Assembly (NCBI GenBank): GCA_018829205.1
Contig: JAHJUE010000008.1
Location: 1 to 64,000 of the forward strand
Direction of reading: 5' to 3'
DNA from: Bacteroidota bacterium
Lineage (GTDB): Bacteria; Bacteroidota; Ignavibacteria; Ignavibacteriales; Melioribacteraceae
Length of the DNA stretch: 64,000 nt
A program made the translations under genes and the position numbers. This document shows positions 2,191-52,537 of the stretch, piece after piece; position 1 is the stretch's first letter; each line of letters starts with the position of its first letter. A model generated the notes under the pieces. The model saw only the letters and a program-made list of their open reading frames with translations, did not search any database and was not told where the DNA came from.

Positions 2191-2862
2191 TTACATTATA
2201 GCGAATTTAACCCTGATACTTTTAGTAATTGTTACCTTTCCTGTAATTCCGCCTTCTTGAAAACTTTCTTTTGTCATTGTATTAAACGGGATCGGTCCGT
2301 CTTTAAAAATGGTTTCATCAATTTCAAGTACGCTGCCAAGGTTAACGTTTAAAACCTGCGCCATTAAAAAAGCTTTATCTTTTGCGGCGAGCAGCGCTTT
2401 TTCCAGGGCCGATTTCATTTTAGTTTCATATTCGGAAATTTTATAACTCGAGTTTGTGATTTCAAAAAAATCATTTGTGGATATTTTGTCGATCAGTTTA
2501 TAATATTTCGATAAATCTTTAAGAAGAAAAGAAACATTTACATTGGTGAAATACCCGTTCTGCACCCGTTCTCCTTGTTTATACTCATAATTTTTACCGA
2601 GTGAAAGCGGTGATATTTCAATATCACTAATTGCTATGCCGCCGCTTTTTAATATTTCGGACAGCTCACTAACTGACCGGTCATTTACTTTTTTACTATC
2701 TTCGATTGATATTCCAATTGTTTTGATATTAATGCCTATTTCCATTTGATCCGCGTTTACTATCAATTCGCTGGTTCCGGTAACATTGATGAATTTATCA
2801 AAACCCTGAGCGTTAATTTTCGAAATAAACAGGATCATAATCACTAAAAAAATATTTTTCAT
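2191..2862 (-). CDS. SIMPL domain (DUF541) periplasmic protein
   Basis: 223 residues with a signal peptide (MKNIFLVIMILFISKINAQ) followed by a SIMPL/DUF541 domain. The FINVTGTSELIVNADQMEIGI opening, the alternating strand pattern, and the late segment with KALLAAKDKAFLMAQVLNV are typical. Characterised SIMPL-domain proteins are periplasmic or outer-membrane associated (E. coli YggE, animal IRAK1BP1), but no general biochemical function is established. The product is expected in the periplasm. A second member of this family lies at 36934-37653. Transcription continues directly into the 930-2189 gene. Confidence 0.85.
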   Translation of the reverse strand: MKNIFLVIMILFISKINAQGFDKFINVTGTSELIVNADQMEIGINIKTIGISIEDSKKVNDRSVSELSEILKSGGIAISDIEISPLSLGKNYEYKQGERVQNGYFTNVNVSFLLKDLSKYYKLIDKISTNDFFEITNSSYKISEYETKMKSALEKALLAAKDKAFLMAQVLNVNLGSVLEIDETIFKDGPIPFNTMTKESFQEGGITGKVTITKSIRVKFAIM

Positions 2863-2925
2863 TTTAATTTCCTTTATATGTTTATTTAGACAAATGCAAT
2901 TATAAATCTAAAATGTTTAACAAAA

Positions 2926-2970
2926 CAAAAAAGGCTCAGTTTCCTATTTAAAGAAAAATACTGAGCCTTT
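2926..2970 (-). terminator. Intrinsic terminator after clpX
   Basis: An 11-bp perfect stem (2930-2940 AAAGGCTCAGT with 2960-2970 ACTGAGCCTTT) and a 19-nt loop. On the minus strand the stem is followed by a T-rich run. It lies 18 nt past the clpX stop. Confidence 0.85.
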
Positions 2971-2987
2971 AGAAAAATATATTTTAT

Positions 2988-4241
2988 TTAAGCTGATTTT
3001 TTTTCTGACTGAATATAAACCGGCGCGTCGCCTTTCAGCACCGTGTTTTTTGTTATCAGGCATTTTTCAACATTTTCCATTTCCGGGAGTTCGAACATTA
3101 TATCCAACAGAATATTTTCCACAATAGATCTTAAAGCACGGGCTCCGGTTTTTCTTTTCATTGCCATTTTTACTATTTCATCCAGAGCTTTTTCTTCGAA
3201 TTCAAGCTTTACACCCTCAAGCATAAATAATTTTTTAAACTGTTTCGTAATGGCGTTCTTAGGCTGAGTTAAAATATTTTTCATAGCGTCTTCATTTAAT
3301 GAATGAAGAGGAGCTACAACCGGAAGTCTTCCGATAAGTTCCGGAATTAAACCGAACTTTAATAGATCTTCGGGTTCGGTAAGCTGTATCAAATCATCTT
3401 TTGCCATTTCACTTTTTACTGAATCGCCGGTAGAAAAACCCATAACATTTTTATTAATTCTTGAAGCGATTATTGGTTCAATACCGTCGAATGCCCCGCC
3501 AACGATAAACAGTATATTTTTAGTATTAATATTTATTAAACTCTGTTCGGGATGTTTTCTTCCGCCGCGCGGAGGAACGCCCGCAACAGTTCCTTCAAGA
3601 ATTTTTAATAAAGCCTGCTGAACGCCTTCTCCCGAGACATCGCGGGTTATCGAAGTGCTTTCGCTCTTCCTCGATATTTTATCGAGTTCATCTATGTATA
3701 TAATTCCTTTCTGGGCTTTTTCAAGATTGTAATCTGCAGCCTGCAATAGTCTAACCAATACTGTTTCAACATCATCGCCTACATAACCGGCTTCGGTTAA
3801 TGTAGTAGCGTCCGCAATTGCGAACGGCACATCCAATATTTTTGCGAGCGTTTGCGCTATTAATGTTTTTCCCACACCCGTCGGACCAATTAACAAAACG
3901 TTGCTTTTTTCTATTTCAACGTCATCTAATTCAAAAAATGAATTATTCGAGTTTATTCTTTTATAATGATTATAAACCGCGACCGATAAAACTTTTTTAG
4001 CCCTATCCTGTCCGATGACATATTCATCCAAATTCTTTTTTAGACTATCGGGGGTTAAATTTCCTTTAATGGCTGGTTTTGTATTATAAGCCGCAAGATT
4101 GCTTTTTAATATATCAACACTGGTTTTAACGCATATATCGCAGATATAAACATCAGGTCCGGCTACCATACTGCTTACTTCCGAAGCGTCTCTTCCGCAA
4201 AAAGAGCATTTCGCGGATTTTTTATCTTTAATTTCATTCAT
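2988..4241 (-). CDS. clpX: ATP-dependent Clp protease ATP-binding subunit ClpX
   Basis: 417 residues, usual ClpX length. The N-terminal zinc-binding domain has Cys12, Cys15, Cys34 and Cys37. The AAA+ module has Walker A GPTGVGKT at 119-126, pore loop GYVGDD, Walker [11 protein letters not shown], the RKH loop (GGRKHPEQ) and the sensor/arginine-finger region [12 protein letters not shown]. ClpX is a hexameric unfoldase that feeds substrates to ClpP. No clpP lies beside it here. Its ATG overlaps the TGA of the preceding TPR gene by 4 nt (ATGA), so translation of the two is probably coupled. Confidence 0.98.
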
Positions 4242-6100
4242 ATAGTCTGTTTAATTCCTTTGTTTATTATGTTTAACATTTGTCTGGATTTGTCAAAATA
4301 TAATGAGTTGGGAAAAGTATCAAGTAAATTCTGGAAAACTTCCTGTCCCTTTTCATAATTATTTAACGCGTAAAGATACGTATTTCCCAATAAATATAAT
4401 GCTTTATCTGAATATACGTTCTTTATTTCTCCGCTTGATAATTCCTCTAAGGCGCTAATTGCGGAATTATATTTATTAAGAGCTATTTCCATTTGAGCAA
4501 ATTTATATTTAGATATATCGTTCAGCAGTATAAGATTTTTATTATCTGCAAGTTTTTTAAAAATTTCCGAAGCGCCGTTAAAATTATTCTGCGCCGAAAG
4601 GAGATCGCCTTTAGCATAATTTAATAGATTTAATGAATCCTGTTTCATTGTGTTAATAATTATTGATAGCTCAATCGCATCATTTGCGAAATTATCGGAA
4701 AGGTTTTGAGATATATCCTTAAGCTCGATTAATGCTTTGGGAAAATTGCCAGTCCAGAATAAAATTTTTGCCGACATAAAATTTGCTAAACTTTTTACGG
4801 AGGGATCGGAAGCGGGTATTTCTTTTAATCTATTATATATTGTTTGAGCTTCACTTAAATTATTTTTTTGAATAGATATTTGAGCGAGATTCTGCATTAA
4901 TTGCACAATTAGAATCGGCGCCAGTCTGCTTTTTTGGAGATCGCTGAAAATTCTCCCTGCTTCGTTATAATCTTTAAATATTGTCAGTTTTATAATACCG
5001 ATTCTCATCTTTGCCGAAGCGATTATATTATCGTTAAAATAGTTTTCAGCCAGGTTTTCATAATCTTTAATAATTTTAGAATACTTATATGAACCGGCGG
5101 TATCATTTTCTAAAAATGGTTTCCATGCGTTTGACGAATCAATTTGTTCACTGTTAAGTTTTTCTTCTGCAGAACGGATATATCCTAATTCGGCATCGGG
5201 CAGAAATGAAGAATTTTTATAATTATTAATTAAAAACATATACGCTTTTGAGGAAGTATTAAAATCGCCTTCGGCAAAAACGGATTTTGCGAAATTAAAA
5301 ATTGAAATGCCGTTATTATCCAGCGCTTTGTCTTTCTGAATCATTAAGTCAAGCGCTTTTGAATAATTCTGTTCCCTCATGTATAAATAACTTAACAAAT
5401 CAAGGTATTGAGTTTTCCGCGATTTCTCGTAATAATCTAGCGTTACATCAATTGTAGCTTTTACGGAATTCGCATGAGTTAAATATCGATTCATGCGGCT
5501 TTGAATTGAAGCCAATTGTTCGGGATTAGAAAATAAAAGATCGCAATATACTTTTGCGGCTTCCTCAAATTCCATTGTAATGGAATATAGATTACCAAGA
5601 TCATAAGAAAAGATCATGGGTTCGTTAGTTGCATCCAGTCCTTTTTTTAATATTTCAATCGCTTTATTAAAATCCCTTTTCTGTATAGCATAATCAGCAA
5701 TAACCCTGTAGGTAACCATTGATGATTTATTTATTTCTATTGCTTTATCCCAAATTTCGGTAGCTTTTTGATTTTCACCCATTGTAGCGTATGTTGAACC
5801 CAGAAGTCCGTATAAATTCGGATCTGTCGGATTTAATTTTATTTTCTCTTCAATTAAAATTATAGAATTGTCGTACTCTTTTAATTTCAGGAAAATATCG
5901 TTAAGCGATTTTACAATTTCAAAATTCCACGGCTGTTCTTTAATAATATCGTTATAAATCTTTTTTGCTTTTTCAAGATCGCCCGATTGTTCATATCTTT
6001 TAGCCAAAGAAATTTTATTGTTAATCAGCAATTCATTCTGCGCGGAAACATCCGGCCTAATCAGCATTAGAACAAATATTATAAATAAAAATATTCTCAT
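4238..6100 (-). CDS. Secreted TPR-repeat protein upstream of clpX
   Basis: About 620 residues from ATG 6100, beginning [21 protein letters not shown], a good signal peptide. The frame is also open from 6133, but that adds residues before the signal. The body is helical with many tetratricopeptide-like repeats, for example [35 protein letters not shown], and near the C-terminus [20 protein letters not shown]. This resembles Bacteroidota tetratricopeptide proteins of the cell envelope. TPR proteins usually scaffold protein-protein contacts; the partner is unknown. It shares an ATGA overlap with clpX, which makes co-expression likely even though the two products act in different compartments. 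Confidence 0.85.
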
Positions 6101-6231
6101 AATAGTTTTTAATAAAATAATGTTAAAAAACACATCCGGGTTTTTCTATACTCTAAACGGAATAATTTGTTCCAAAAATTCATTTATCTACGGGTTTGTT
6201 TCACCGGAAGCCTGGACAGAAAAGTAAACCG

Positions 6232-6251
6232 AAAAAAACTTTTATAAAAGT
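6232..6251 (-). terminator. Possible weak terminator after the Trm112-like gene
   Basis: An AT-rich 14-nt palindrome (ACTTTTATAAAAGT, 6238-6251) is followed on the minus strand by seven T. It lies about 40 nt past the stop at 6291. The stem is weak, so support is modest. Confidence 0.35.
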
Positions 6252-6290
6252 CCGAATGAAAGGAAACGATTAACATTTAATTAAATTCAG

Positions 6291-6506
6291 TTATTCAGTT
6301 TCTTTTCCATGCTTTTTCATGATGCTTTTCCAGGTTTCAATATCTAATTGTTCGGATTCTTCAATAAGCATAATCGGAATGTCATCTACTATTTTATATT
6401 TACGGCGTGTTGCTTTATCGGTTGATACAAGAAAATTATCCTCAAGAACTAGATCCGCTTTTGATTCCGGGCAGCATAAAATTTCGAGTAATTCGTTACT
6501 AATCAT
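6291..6506 (-). CDS. Trm112 / UPF0434 family small zinc-binding protein
   Basis: 71 residues. The N-terminus MISNELLEILCCPESKADL is typical of Trm112/YcaR-type proteins, and IVDDIPIMLIEE matches the family's 'dgIPvml.eea' segment. Bacterial members are small zinc-ribbon-like proteins; in eukaryotes and archaea Trm112 activates methyltransferases. Only the first cysteine pair (CC) is obvious, so metal binding may be degenerate. It begins 11 nt after the stop of the esterase gene, suggesting one transcript. Confidence 0.85.
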   Translation of the reverse strand: MISNELLEILCCPESKADLVLEDNFLVSTDKATRRKYKIVDDIPIMLIEESEQLDIETWKSIMKKHGKETE

Positions 6507-48574: not shown

Positions 48575-48624
48575 ATTCATTAACTTAATAATTACTTAAT
48601 TAATTGTGTAAATCAAATTGTAAA

Positions 48625-48659
48625 ATAACAATTTTGAATCATAAAAGGGTAGCCGATTG
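48625..48659. repeat. 35-nt direct repeat, copy 1
   Basis: This 35-nt stretch differs at one position from 49313-49347. Both copies sit past the 3' end of a minus-strand gene, 3' of the DUF1772-like and the DUF4386-like genes. Core AAAAGGGTAGCCGATTG is shared. Confidence 0.85.
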
Positions 48660-48745: not shown

Positions 48746-49255
48746 TTATCCAATGTTATAGTAAAAAAGAAATAATAGCAGTAACATTGAAATGATACAT
48801 GAAAAATAAGTTCTAATTATATTCCAACGGTTCCAGCGATCTTCAAAATTGCTTCGGGAAGTTTTTGCATTCTCTTCATTTAAAGCATCAACATCTAATG
48901 CTTGCAATTTATTATTCAATGGAACATTAACTACAATTGTAGGTATATGAACACCAAACAGATTCAAAATTAACGCGGTAAAAATTGTAATTAATCCAAT
49001 CCCTTCTAACTCACTAAAACTAAGTATGGCAGTAATAATTAAAGATAAGATAGAGCCTAACCAAATTAGTATAAATAGAGGCTGCTGATCTTGAATAATT
49101 CTATCAATTGCTTTAAATGTTTTTAAAAATTCTTTGTCGCTTAGTTTTCTTATTCCCGGCATTATCACCAAAGAAAAAGCTATTAAAAATCCCGCGACTA
49201 AAGTACAAAGGAAAGCAGTTGTTATTAGAAAAATATGAAACATGTTCAATTTCAA
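48746..49255 (-). CDS. DUF1772 (anthrone-oxygenase-like) membrane protein
   Basis: 169 residues, four predicted transmembrane helices: FLITTAFLCTLVAGFLIAFS, LFILIWLGSILSLIITAILS, LITIFTALILNLFGVHIPTI and ISMLLLLFLFYYN. VNVPLNNKLQALDVD and RWNRWNIIRTYFS are typical of DUF1772, whose fungal members include anthrone oxygenases. Here the enzyme role is not established. Last of the AraC-led gene group, though a hairpin in the 159-nt gap may reduce readthrough into it. Confidence 0.85.
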   Translation of the reverse strand: MKLNMFHIFLITTAFLCTLVAGFLIAFSLVIMPGIRKLSDKEFLKTFKAIDRIIQDQQPLFILIWLGSILSLIITAILSFSELEGIGLITIFTALILNLFGVHIPTIVVNVPLNNKLQALDVDALNEENAKTSRSNFEDRWNRWNIIRTYFSCIISMLLLLFLFYYNIG

Positions 49256-49312
49256 TTCTCCTTAAATTTTAATTAATATTTCTGAAGGATATAATCTCAA
49301 CTGGTATTTAAG

Positions 49313-49347
49313 ATAACAATTTAGAATCATAAAAGGGTAGCCGATTG
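49313..49347. repeat. 35-nt direct repeat, copy 2
   Basis: Partner of 48625-48659 with a single mismatch (AATTTAG versus AATTTTG). The distance between copies is 688 nt and the DUF1772-like gene lies between them. Confidence 0.85.
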
Positions 49348-49361
49348 TGGATCAGCGACCC
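49328..49361 (-). terminator. Terminator-like hairpin after the DUF4386-like gene
   Basis: On the minus strand 49361-49335 reads GGGTCGCTGAT ... ATCGGCTACCC and folds with 9-10 pairs around a short loop, followed by TTTTATG. Half of it is the direct repeat copy 2. Confidence 0.6.
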
Positions 49362-49414
49362 TCTTCTTAATACTAACTCTATTGCTTTTGGGGAAAGATT
49401 AATAAATCATATTC

Positions 49415-50116
49415 TTAATTATTTGCATTAAGTGATTTTATTATAGGTGCTGCGTGATTAAACCCTTTTATTACTAACCAAAGACCAAGAGAAAATTCAA
49501 AAAAAGCCACGGGTACTGCTGCCAAAAACGCTATTGTCGAACGCTGTTCAATTAAACCAAATTGATGGGAAATATCCGAAGATAATAAAAAGAAAGCACC
49601 TATTATTCCAATTAACGAAAGGGTTTGGGGGACTAACCGCGATTTATAAAGAAGGTAGCCCAAAAGTAAATCGTCTGCTACCGGAATTAAACTTTGCCCA
49701 ATTGAGAAAATCCTGTCATATAATACCACCAGTGCTTGTCCGACAGGTAAAGCGTCTGCGCCAACTCCACTTTGTCTTAAGGCAACAATTGTAAGTAAAG
49801 AAGCTACCCCGAAGAAAATCGTACTGGCTTCAAGTATTCTGGCTCCAACAAGCGCCAAAGCGATTTCTTCATTCTGTTTTTTAAGTACGGAGTACAAAGC
49901 TATTGCAGAACCAATACCAGCCAAAGCCACAACAATTTCTAAAATAGCGCCGATTATAACTTCCGTATCAGGTCCGGGACCAATTATGAAGTTTGGATTA
50001 CGTACTGAATTATAGAGTGAAAGTGTTGGAATAGAAACAAAGGTAAGCAGGTAGAGTATTCCCGCAGTCAAAGCTATTCTTCTAGGAGAGGAAGCAAATC
50101 TATTAATTGAATTCAT
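49415..50116 (-). CDS. DUF4386 family membrane protein
   Basis: 233 residues with about six transmembrane helices: RIALTAGILYLLTFVSIP opens it, followed by GAILEIVVALAGIGSAIALY, ARILEASTIFFGVASLLTIVAL, SLIPVADDLLLGYLLYKS, PQTLSLIGIIGAFFLLSSD and FFEFSLGLWLVIKGF. This helix order and the 'RiaGxlYLlt' start fit DUF4386. Function unknown. It begins 22 nt after the DUF2938-like stop, on the same strand. Confidence 0.88.
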   Translation of the reverse strand: MNSINRFASSPRRIALTAGILYLLTFVSIPTLSLYNSVRNPNFIIGPGPDTEVIIGAILEIVVALAGIGSAIALYSVLKKQNEEIALALVGARILEASTIFFGVASLLTIVALRQSGVGADALPVGQALVVLYDRIFSIGQSLIPVADDLLLGYLLYKSRLVPQTLSLIGIIGAFFLLSSDISHQFGLIEQRSTIAFLAAVPVAFFEFSLGLWLVIKGFNHAAPIIKSLNANN

Positions 50117-50138
50117 TTTGTATACCCATTTTAATGAT

Positions 50139-50615
50139 TTAAAATTGATTTATAAGTAAAGCCGATAAATACAACCCGAAACCGTATATTAAATGAGTCA
50201 GAAAACTTTTGAATCTTCTCAAATTTGGATTTGGTAATTTTGATGATCCAATTCCGAAACCCAATGCCGGCTGCATAATAAATAATGGAGCCAAAAGTGA
50301 GATAATTCCAGTAGACAATGCTGAAGAAATTTCAGGTTTGTCAATCCAATTTGTTCCGAATAGAATTATAAGCAGAAAGGAAAATGTAATTCCAATGAGA
50401 TAATGTGCGGTCCACCCCAACAATAATTCTCCACGAATTGAAGGTGATTTTACAATATTTTCATGGCGAAATTTACCGTTGGGAAAACCGGCAATCCATC
50501 TACCGACAAAACGGTAATCGAGAGATTTAATTTTAAATAGAGATTGAACATATCCCCAAAGATCTACTAATAAAGTTGCTCCGATTCCAATTGCAATTAT
50601 TTTTAATACAATCAT
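50139..50615 (-). CDS. DUF2938-like membrane protein
   Basis: 158 residues, four to five transmembrane helices. IIAIGIGATLLVDLWGYVQSLF, YRFVGRWIAGFPNGKFRHENI, LLLGWTAHYLIGITFSFLLII and IMQPALGFGIGSSKLPNPNLRRFKSFLTHLIYGFGLYLSALL match the DUF2938 pattern as I remember it. Function unknown. The start overlaps the stop of the preceding 77-residue gene by 4 nt (50612-50615). Confidence 0.85.
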   Translation of the reverse strand: MIVLKIIAIGIGATLLVDLWGYVQSLFKIKSLDYRFVGRWIAGFPNGKFRHENIVKSPSIRGELLLGWTAHYLIGITFSFLLIILFGTNWIDKPEISSALSTGIISLLAPLFIMQPALGFGIGSSKLPNPNLRRFKSFLTHLIYGFGLYLSALLINQF

Positions 50616-50845
50616 TGCTTCTCCAAGATTTCGCGAGCTGTTGAAAACCAGCGGATTATTGAATCAACTAAAGGCACTCCGACAAAAACAATTAGTGGAA
50701 CTAGTGTAATAGTCATTAAAAAGGTTCTTATATATAATGGAACAGCGGATAAAAGTTCACCAAACAAATAAAGGAACAGAGTTAGAGCTGGGTAGATAAC
50801 TATCCAGATTTTAAAAGAAGCGATTAATTTTAATTTTGATTTCAT
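50612..50845 (-). CDS. Stand-alone membrane domain like the C-terminus of antibiotic-biosynthesis-monooxygenase (ABM) proteins
   Basis: 77 residues with two transmembrane helices: FKIWIVIYPALTLFLYLFG and TFLMTITLVPLIVFVGVPLV, then a short RWF helix. The order 'IYPxxTL ... LPLYIRTFxxTxxLVPLxxxxxxP ... RWx' matches what I recall of the two-helix tail of many bacterial ABM-superfamily proteins, but the soluble ABM domain is missing. SD AGGTAG lies upstream. Coupled with the DUF2938-like gene by a 4-nt overlap. First membrane gene after the AraC regulator. Confidence 0.75.
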   Translation of the reverse strand: MKSKLKLIASFKIWIVIYPALTLFLYLFGELLSAVPLYIRTFLMTITLVPLIVFVGVPLVDSIIRWFSTAREILEKQ

Positions 50846-50933
50846 AAATACTACCTTTCTTTAAATTTATTTATGACAAAGATAGTAGGTGTATAAATCT
50901 GAGAGATAGGACAAAAACGAAGTTTAACAGGAC

Positions 50934-51791
50934 TTAATTCAAATTTTGTCTGAATGCTTGTGGTGAAAGTCCTGTATGCTTTCTAAAAAACCTGATGAAA
51001 TATGAAACATCTTCATATCCAAGATGATACGCAATTTCTTTTACCTGGTTTGATGTTGAAAGGAGGTAACGTTTGGATTCAAGAATAATTTGTTCATTAA
51101 TAAGTTCAGAACTAGTTTTACCTAGTGCAGTTTTAGTAATAGTATTTAATTGATACGGAGAAAGGTTAAGCATTTTCGCATATTGGGACGCCCGTTTATT
51201 TACAAGAATATGATTGTCTAAAAGTTCAGAGAATTTTTCAAGACGGTCGATTATTGATCTTCGTTCAGCTGAATTTTGATTATGTTCATTGTTGCGAAGT
51301 AATTCAATAAAGAAAATTTCCAGGCTTGCTTTGATTACGTCGGAATATTTCTCTTTTTTTTCAACACTTTCTTTCAATATCCCATCTATTATTGAAAATA
51401 GTTTTTTAAATGATTCAGAATCTAATTGCCAAAGGGTTTTACTACATGTTCTTCTCAAAAGTGTTTTTGACTTAATGTCATCCGTAGGGAAAAAATCTTT
51501 TCTAAATTGTATAATATAACCAACGCTTCCTTTTTTAAGAACTATTTTATGAACCTGACCTGGACGCATAATAAAAATAGAATATTTTTTGATTTGATAT
51601 GGAGTAAAGTCAATTGTATGTGTACCCCGGCCTTTCAATAAAACCAGTAAATAATAGAAATCATGCCTGTGAGTATCCTGAACAAAATCTTTTCCACATA
51701 TAATTTTCTGAACTTCTCTTATGCTGAAGTTTTCAGAATCATTTAGGGCTTTGGGATTAGTATTTATATATATTAAAGGGATTGTTTTCAT
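50934..51791 (-). CDS. AraC/XylS family transcriptional regulator
   Basis: 285 residues. N-terminal cupin-like sensor domain (about 20-150: DTHRHDFYYLLVLLKGRGTHTIDF, FIMRPGQVHKIVLKKG), then a two-HTH DNA-binding domain at about 185-285: LNLSPYQLNTITKTALGKTSSELINEQIILE and KEIAYHLGYEDVSYFIRFFRKHTGLSPQAFRQ. These regulators usually respond to a small molecule. It lies 88 nt upstream of the four membrane-protein genes on the same strand, so it is the natural candidate to control them. Confidence 0.93.
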   Translation of the reverse strand: MKTIPLIYINTNPKALNDSENFSIREVQKIICGKDFVQDTHRHDFYYLLVLLKGRGTHTIDFTPYQIKKYSIFIMRPGQVHKIVLKKGSVGYIIQFRKDFFPTDDIKSKTLLRRTCSKTLWQLDSESFKKLFSIIDGILKESVEKKEKYSDVIKASLEIFFIELLRNNEHNQNSAERRSIIDRLEKFSELLDNHILVNKRASQYAKMLNLSPYQLNTITKTALGKTSSELINEQIILESKRYLLSTSNQVKEIAYHLGYEDVSYFIRFFRKHTGLSPQAFRQNLN

Positions 51792-52021: not shown

Positions 52022-52537
52022 GTGATAAAAAGAAGTCTGCTTTTAATTTTACCTGCCGAAGATTTTAACGAAGACGAATATCTAACCGTAAAACGTATTC
52101 TTGAGATATCAGGATTTAAACTATTTGTGGCATCCGACGCGAATTCGCTTTGTATCGGCAAAAAAGGGCTTAAAGTAAAAGCAGATGTTTCATTTTTTAA
52201 TATGAATGAAAATAATTTTGCGGGAATAATTTTTATCGGCGGAAGCGGAGTGAAGAAATACTGGGATAAAAAGAATCTTCATATAATAGCTAATAAATTT
52301 TTTGACAAGAAAAAACTTGTCGCCGCTATATGCAGCGCTCCTGTAATTTTAGCAAAGGCCGGATTAATTGAAGGTAAGGATGCCACCTGTTACCCTGAAG
52401 ACAGACGAGAATTGGAAAAATGCGGAGTTAATTATAAATATGAATCAGTCGTAATTCAAAAAAACATTATAACCGCACAGGATTCCGCCTCTTCGCTTGA
52501 TTTTGCAAACGCGATTGTTAACTTCAAATTGAAGTAA
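52022..52537 (+). CDS. DJ-1/PfpI family protein
   Basis: 171 residues from GTG 52022. The nucleophile-elbow Cys104 sits in AAICSAPVILAKAGLIEGK and Glu13 (PAEDF) is in the expected place; IIFIGGSGVKKYW and DSASSLDFANAIV are typical of the family. DJ-1 homologues are reported as stress chaperones, glyoxalases or proteases; the actual role here is unclear. No SD is evident except a weak AAAGAGA. Divergent from the AraC gene across a 230-nt gap with no clear promoter. Confidence 0.88.
   Translation: MIKRSLLLILPAEDFNEDEYLTVKRILEISGFKLFVASDANSLCIGKKGLKVKADVSFFNMNENNFAGIIFIGGSGVKKYWDKKNLHIIANKFFDKKKLVAAICSAPVILAKAGLIEGKDATCYPEDRRELEKCGVNYKYESVVIQKNIITAQDSASSLDFANAIVNFKLK

Follow-up and report, generated by a model that had tools for sequence, protein, structure and literature searches.

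An AraC-led gene cluster with DUF2938 and DUF4386 membrane proteins in a Melioribacteraceae bacterium: a possible modular small-molecule stress cassette

Introduction

What might an AraC-family regulator control when the genes that follow it on the same strand encode four small, predicted membrane proteins? This question is raised by a locus in a 64,000-nucleotide (nt) stretch of DNA, hereafter the window (positions 1 to 64,000 of contig JAHJUE010000008.1), from a 4.59 Mb genome assembly (GCA_018829205.1) of a Bacteroidota bacterium of the class Ignavibacteria and the family Melioribacteraceae. In the list of open reading frames (ORFs) of the window, five minus-strand genes occur in the 5' to 3' order AraC, SMALL, DUF2938, DUF4386, and DUF1772, where SMALL is our name for the 77-amino-acid (aa) two-helix protein encoded after AraC; this protein resembles the membrane tail of antibiotic biosynthesis monooxygenase (ABM) proteins. 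AraC and SMALL are separated by 88 nt, the start of DUF2938 overlaps the stop of SMALL by 4 nt, and the gaps between DUF2938 and DUF4386 and between DUF4386 and DUF1772 are 22 and 159 nt, respectively. The genes are as follows.

50934-51791, minus strand: AraC-family regulator, first gene of the putative cassette (285 aa; Pfam HTH_18, HTH_AraC, and AraC_binding)
50612-50845, minus strand: SMALL, ABM-tail-like two-helix protein (77 aa; no family over cut-off)
50139-50615, minus strand: DUF2938 membrane protein (158 aa; PF11158)
49415-50116, minus strand: DUF4386 membrane protein of a rare subfamily (233 aa; PF14329)
48746-49255, minus strand: DUF1772/Anthrone_oxy membrane protein, a probable passenger (169 aa; PF08592)

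The membrane location of SMALL, DUF2938, DUF4386, and DUF1772 is predicted from hydrophobic stretches and from helical models of DUF4386 and DUF2938. An initial annotation of the window, which agrees with the ORF list in coordinates, strand, order, and gaps and whose AraC, DUF2938, DUF4386, and DUF1772 assignments are borne out by Pfam matches over cut-off, read all five genes as one AraC-led unit, characterized by the lack of a soluble enzyme, and named detoxification, membrane remodelling, and uptake as possible roles. The comparisons reported here support a recurrent unit of the AraC subfamily and SMALL, in which DUF2938 and DUF4386 also recur, and suggest that it may serve in the response to small-molecule stress. 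If this is true, an AraC-controlled stress cassette is scattered over the Bacteroidota and has two uncharacterized membrane protein families as effectors; linking DUF2938 and DUF4386 to one regulator subfamily, and by way of it to DepH-like, methyltransferase, and quinone-reductase-like enzymes, would provide the first role that can be tested for these families and a few candidate inducers. No description of an AraC–SMALL–DUF2938–DUF4386 set was found in the open-licence PubMed Central literature, in which we found no mention of DUF4386 and, in the portions of text available, a single mention of DUF2938, in a transcriptome table.

Results and Discussion

Recurrence of the AraC and SMALL genes

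Three samples were compared: 58 near-relative genomes; 395 genomes of the phylum, which were searched with SMALL, AraC, DUF4386, and DUF2938 (both samples include the window's own genome); and a set of DUF2938 loci comprising the best 80 of at least 579 confirmed relatives found in a scan of genome contigs. Handles beginning with G and L denote genomes and loci, respectively. In the phylum sample, subfamily thresholds were E ≤ 1e-55 for AraC, E ≤ 1e-25 for SMALL, and E ≤ 1e-30 for DUF4386, and DUF2938 was counted as full-length above 170 bits.

The AraC subfamily was found in 15 of the 395 phylum genomes, i.e., 14 genomes at E ≤ 1e-55 and G067, whose AraC gene is split into two frames and was counted by hand as AraC-bearing. 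A strong SMALL match occurs in 12 of the 395 genomes, in all 12 downstream of an AraC orthologue; viewed from the regulator, SMALL is downstream of AraC in 12 of the 15 AraC loci, with G141, G217, and G311 lacking it. Locus L177, for example, has an AraC protein 49% and a SMALL protein 71% identical to those of the window, and in G255 the two genes are separated by a beta-lactamase-family gene. Five weaker SMALL-like matches in the phylum sample are in loci that contain no AraC match. Window-type DUF4386 is present in five of the 395 genomes, all five of which carry the AraC subfamily. The four of these other than the window's represent four families, and in three of the four the DUF4386 gene is within approximately 4 kb of the SMALL gene (in the same gene run in G102, between AraC and SMALL on the opposite strand in G328, and about 3.8 kb from SMALL in G255); in G249, a partial DUF4386 match is on a separate contig from SMALL. 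Full-length DUF2938 was identified in 11 of the 395 genomes and is beside AraC in four. Hypergeometric P values for co-occurrence with AraC across the 395 genomes, which ignore kinship, are ~5e-19 for SMALL, ~1e-6 for window-type DUF4386, and ~2e-4 for DUF2938, and the order AraC–SMALL–DUF2938–DUF4386 recurs in G067 and G072, two genomes of one genus outside the window's class. Taken together, these data support the AraC subfamily and SMALL as a recurrent unit in which DUF2938 and DUF4386 are recurrent members. This much of the single AraC-led unit proposed initially can be retained; membership of the DUF1772 gene is not supported, as neither the 15 other AraC loci nor the 80 DUF2938 loci have such a gene adjoining the cassette.

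Among the 58 near relatives, DUF2938 over cut-off was found in three genomes, SMALL in two, DUF4386 over cut-off in 14, and relatives of DUF1772 in seven, and G030 is the only genome besides the window's with an orthologue-level AraC (E 2.4e-93; next match 1.8e-37). In G030, AraC (53% identical to the window's) and SMALL (69%) are followed by a methyltransferase gene instead of DUF2938. Since the near relatives lack the complete set and G030 has this AraC–SMALL–methyltransferase arrangement, the full set is patchy and not conserved within the taxonomic order. Conservation of gene order had been proposed initially as the check on a single unit, with separate genes in relatives as grounds to abandon it; the outcome is divided, with the cluster lacking in all 57 other near relatives and the order kept in G067 and G072. 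The G030 locus (L061, 9061-10841) also contains an HxlR regulator, an NmrA-family reductase, and a DoxX gene beside the AraC–SMALL pair.

An exchangeable position downstream of AraC and SMALL

The position that follows AraC, or AraC and SMALL, is occupied by different genes in different genomes. Across the 15 AraC loci, this slot holds a flavoprotein in seven (G102, G249, G087, G068, G255, G328, and G311), DUF2938 in four (G000, which is the window's genome, G337, G067, and G072), an S-adenosylmethionine (SAM) methyltransferase in three (G030, G141, and G217), and a PIG3/quinone-reductase-like zinc dehydrogenase in one (G335). A soluble enzyme thus takes the place of DUF2938 in 11 of the 15 loci, and the lack of such an enzyme, which had been put forward as the defining feature of the cluster, is therefore a property of the window copy and not of the family. 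The thioredoxin-reductase-like slot flavoprotein matches Pfam Pyr_redox_2 (94.7 bits), and its matches in the PDB include an unnamed oxidoreductase (3fbs, E 8.8e-54), DepH (6.5e-53), two entries named thioredoxin reductase (4.9e-46 and 9.5e-42), and GliT (9.3e-38). In G311 (L211), AraC and the flavoprotein are followed by a gene for a thiopurine S-methyltransferase (TPMT), whose score of 269.5 bits is over the curated cut-off of 223.2. At E ≤ 1e-30, a slot-type flavoprotein was found in none of the four DUF2938-type AraC genomes, including the window's, and is lacking in three of the 11 other AraC genomes (Fisher P 0.026, for few and partly related genomes).

Proposed function and known systems

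The enzymes in the slot resemble ones that oxidize dithiols (DepH/GliT type), methylate, or reduce quinone-like compounds; combined with an AraC-type sensor, they are laid out like an inducible cassette for small-molecule stress. We thus find it plausible, if a little short of probable, that the locus represents a modular, AraC-controlled cassette for thiol, electrophile, or redox stress, and detoxification fits best among the roles proposed initially. The mechanism outlined here is drawn from the company that the partner genes keep and not from the window's own proteins. The AraC regulator would sense a toxic compound, be it a thiol, an electrophile, or a redox-active molecule, and would switch on its own neighbourhood, whose products would act at the inner membrane to remove or neutralize it. 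The effector in most relatives would be the soluble DepH/GliT-like flavoprotein, methyltransferase, or quinone-reductase-like enzyme; in the window, DUF2938 and DUF4386 would do this work as a membrane-embedded enzyme, a channel, or partner proteins, and SMALL may be a membrane partner common to the cassette variants.

A number of observations weigh against a stress cassette. The complete cluster was found in 0 of the 57 other near relatives, and the order AraC–SMALL–DUF2938–DUF4386 is known from three genomes, two of which belong to one genus and carry a distant DUF4386 that shares only 26% identity with the one in the window. An orthologous AraC at E ≤ 1e-30 is lacking in 74 of the 80 DUF2938 loci, and seven of the 11 full-length DUF2938 genes in the phylum sample have no intact AraC beside them (one of these, in G389, has an AraC fragment). 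As the window cassette contains no soluble enzyme and its genome is among those with no slot-type flavoprotein, its role has to be read from relatives. The flavoprotein itself is below the NCBIfam cut-offs (best match, thioredoxin reductase, 85.6 bits vs. 343), and "dithiol oxidase" is thus a nearest-relative label. Finally, AraC genes often adjoin assorted enzymes, and genes for short-chain dehydrogenases/reductases (SDR), quinone reductases, and methyltransferases are common, so that "detoxification" may be an over-reading.

The patchiness of the complete set among near relatives would also be expected of a loose, ordinary neighbourhood, in which an AraC gene and unrelated small membrane proteins were joined by chance and horizontal transfer. 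In line with this, each of the families also occurs alone, and the GC content at third codon positions (GC3) is 0.22-0.28 in the five genes and thus below most of the six neighbouring genes (0.28-0.31), as for acquired DNA; this is weak evidence for acquisition, and total GC shows no consistent shift (0.29-0.39 in the five genes vs. 0.34-0.36 in the neighbours). However, co-occurrence and adjacency across families and classes are far above chance for SMALL and DUF4386 and, less strongly, for DUF2938. A chance neighbourhood is thereby already largely refuted for AraC, SMALL, and DUF4386, and we consider it distinctly unlikely as an account of the locus.

Two described systems bear on the proposed stress cassette. 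RclR, the regulator of the HOSCN (hypothiocyanous acid) and reactive chlorine resistance operon RclABC, is of the AraC type and senses through cysteines. In 19 aligned orthologues of the window's AraC, no cysteine is invariant or nearly invariant, and an RclR-like cysteine switch is thus unlikely here; H41, H43, H58, and H81 are invariant, and we would guess that the cupin pocket binds a metal or a ligand. The window's AraC exceeds the Pfam cut-offs for HTH_18 (76.8 bits), HTH_AraC (47.9 bits), and AraC_binding (39.4 bits) and belongs to the AraC/XylS group, with an AraC-type helix-turn-helix domain and an N-terminal ligand domain, a cupin-type sensor. In E. coli, RclR upregulates a flavoprotein reductase as well as periplasmic and inner-membrane proteins needed for resistance to HOSCN, and the mechanism of RclB (DUF1471) and RclC (DUF417) is given as unknown in the available part of the report (PMC12096828). 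As far as that part describes RclR–RclABC, the window cassette shares with it a single regulator and a small putative operon, and many relatives have a flavoprotein as well; the window cassette differs in having DUF2938, DUF4386, and a two-helix protein, in having no RclA-like flavoprotein among its cassette genes, and in its regulator. The comparison suggests by analogy that the window cassette may work like RclR–RclABC without being a member of that system.

The second system is the DepH/HlmI/GliT group of dithiol oxidases, as DepH is the nearest specifically named PDB match of the flavoprotein found in seven of the 15 AraC loci. DnoP of P. aeruginosa, as described in the available part of its report, is a DepH-group enzyme that serves xenobiotic defence in an organism that does not produce such a toxin (PMC11317636). 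The present loci differ in that the four DUF2938-type AraC genomes have no such flavoprotein; furthermore, DnoP induction follows zinc starvation, and no membrane partner is named in that part (PMC11317636).

The SMALL protein

SMALL has no Pfam or NCBIfam match over cut-off. A weak relative, L189 (27% identical), matches plasmid proteins, five of the ten among the matches listed being annotated as "antibiotic biosynthesis monooxygenase", and in the one L189-matching plasmid coding sequence that was inspected the match is at the C-terminal end. The initially noted likeness to an ABM membrane tail is supported through this intermediate; unlike ABM proteins with a C-terminal membrane tail, SMALL, at 77 aa and with no Pfam family over cut-off, carries no ABM catalytic domain. 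Plasmid homologues of SMALL itself were not found at E ≤ 1e-3. A weaker SMALL relative in L187 (G296; 2608-5026) is flanked by an AtaL-family gene and a gene for an NADPH-dependent FMN reductase; a gene read as pirin-like precedes, making this another redox-flavoured setting for an ABM-tail-like protein.

The DUF2938 and DUF4386 proteins

The DUF2938 protein matches PF11158 over profile positions 1-149 of 150 (175.4 bits vs. a cut-off of 31.4). In 48 aligned sequences (44 of the 80 fetched loci and 4 others), D18, R39, W40, H51, E63, W68, H71, Y72, Q115, and H141 (protein numbering) are invariant and no cysteine is. This polar conservation exceeds the need of a mere anchor, and either an enzyme or a selective channel would fit it. 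DUF4386 matches PF14329 over all 210 profile positions (1-210; 133.2 bits vs. a cut-off of 27.6), and only G19 and E207 are invariant in 23 divergent sequences. AlphaFold single-chain models are helical for DUF2938 (predicted local distance difference test score, pLDDT, 87.9) and consist of long helices for DUF4386 (pLDDT 88.8), and neither had a Foldseek match at E ≤ 0.001. VIA-align yielded weak rows for DUF2938 (best Z 5.2 over 100 residues at 3.4 Å), and its DUF4386 rows were mostly designed or generic helical bundles (best Z 10.7 over 144 residues at 3.0 Å); neither result is above the usual scores of helical models. These model searches thus gave no convincing solved relative for either protein, a result that does not imply a novel fold. 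A further DUF4386 gene, apparently split over two frames, is present on contig 33 of the window's own genome (16823-17445; L036 and L037).

As both are membrane proteins, DUF4386 and DUF2938 could alternatively make up a transporter whose substrate, a small organic compound, is sensed by AraC, i.e., a ligand-responsive uptake or efflux unit. Two Chloroflexota loci, L127 and L150, in which ABC-transporter-like genes (by ORF reading) follow DUF4386 and DUF2938, favour such a role. Against it, neither protein matches a transporter family in Pfam or NCBIfam or has a structural match at the Foldseek threshold above, the window cassette includes no substrate-binding or energizing subunit, and relatives have enzymes in the slot; we regard a transporter as unlikely. 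In L127 and L150, window-type DUF4386 (57% and 54% identical, respectively) is upstream of DUF2938 within a run of a large LuxR/MalT-like regulator, two DUF4386-like genes, DUF2938, and the ABC-transporter-like genes, and these loci represent a second regulator type for the DUF4386–DUF2938 pair (regulator, first DUF4386-like gene, and transporter by reading). In G286 (L225), a DUF4386 gene whose product is 35% identical to the window's is directly upstream of DUF2938.

With regard to its association with the regulator, DUF2938 has an orthologous AraC (E ≤ 1e-30) just upstream in six of the 80 loci (L082, L085, L086, L091, L103, and L106, the last being G337), and SMALL lies between the two in one of these six. 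In a seventh locus, L088, only an AraC fragment is upstream of DUF2938 (60% over 53 residues), and any AraC match at E ≤ 1e-3 is found within 6 kb in 16 of the 80 loci. As DUF2938 mostly occurs without AraC yet is beside it in several loci, it is an independent family that was recruited more than once by this AraC. A DepH-like flavoprotein gene (51%) is directly upstream of DUF2938 in L139 (Pedobacter caeni, 5060-6420), and a TPMT gene is downstream of DUF2938 in L147, both without the AraC subfamily; we read these two loci as the same toolbox without that subfamily. Among 59 plasmid records with DUF2938 genes, five were inspected, of which two are unannotated and three have no cassette-type gene apart from a divergent helix-turn-helix gene in two.

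A more specific form of the stress-cassette proposal is that DUF2938, with DUF4386, replaces the DepH/GliT-type flavoprotein of a toxin-resistance cassette under AraC control, in which case a membrane-embedded protein with a different fold and no conserved cysteines would do the protective job of the flavoprotein at the membrane. The invariant charged, polar, and aromatic residues of DUF2938 would suit such a role. The lack of the flavoprotein in DUF2938-type genomes invites this idea without establishing it, and the side-by-side flavoprotein and DUF2938 genes in L139 argue against strict replacement; we consider it quite improbable.

The DUF1772 gene and its flanking repeats

The DUF1772 gene starts with TTG, an ATG four codons further in being also possible, and its product belongs to PF08592, Anthrone_oxy (51.5 bits vs. 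a cut-off of 27.3), the family formerly named DUF1772. No solved relative was found by sequence at E ≤ 1. The gene is bounded by two copies of a direct repeat, whose 20-bp core has no third copy in the genome when up to 3 mismatches are allowed.

48621-48659, no strand assigned: 39-bp direct repeat, copy downstream of the DUF1772 gene (37/39 identical to 49309-49347)
49309-49347, no strand assigned: 39-bp direct repeat, copy between the DUF4386 and DUF1772 genes (37/39 identical to 48621-48659)

Because of the 159-nt gap, the flanking repeats, and the lack of a DUF1772 gene next to the cassette in the other loci searched, DUF1772 is probably a passenger that was acquired separately and stands outside the cassette; the nearest other case is a DUF1772 gene 5.3 kb from DUF2938 in L083. 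The same observations argue against a reading of all five genes as a natural-product tailoring or quinone unit, in which the Anthrone_oxy-family protein would oxidize an aromatic compound and the others would protect the membrane, as do DUF1772 relatives in L039, L041, and L045, which sit behind other AraC-like genes. This reading draws on the position of DUF1772 downstream on the same strand, on the naming of its family for anthrone oxygenase, and on the inclusion in that family of ChrI, which is described in the available part of its report as a membrane partner of an enzyme that modifies ribosomally synthesized and post-translationally modified peptides (RiPPs) (PMC10214503). The window protein shares the Pfam family with ChrI, the chryseobasin maturation helper, but scores 98.6 bits against a cut-off of 275 in the NCBIfam ChrI equivalog model. 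We judge a five-gene tailoring unit very improbable.

Surroundings of the locus

A scan for promoters and terminators was no richer in the locus than in shuffled sequences (20 vs. a mean of 17.2 and 1 vs. a mean of 1.8, respectively) and therefore sets no operon boundary. A defence or phage origin of the cluster was rejected, as window proteins had no PADLOC or PHROGs match at E ≤ 0.01 (5 and 4 proteins queried, respectively). One further gene was considered as a cassette partner.

52022-52537, divergent from AraC with ~230 nt between: DJ-1/PfpI gene (Pfam 113.9 bits)

This candidate was set aside, as none of 20 other AraC loci, of which L185 and L212 belong to one genome, contained a match to it at E ≤ 1e-3. 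In L177, a gene read as a DJ-1-superfamily AraC-type gene is upstream. Read by eye, the genes that flank the window locus are a primase-like (dnaG-like) gene at one end and, at the opposite end, a long ispG-like gene.

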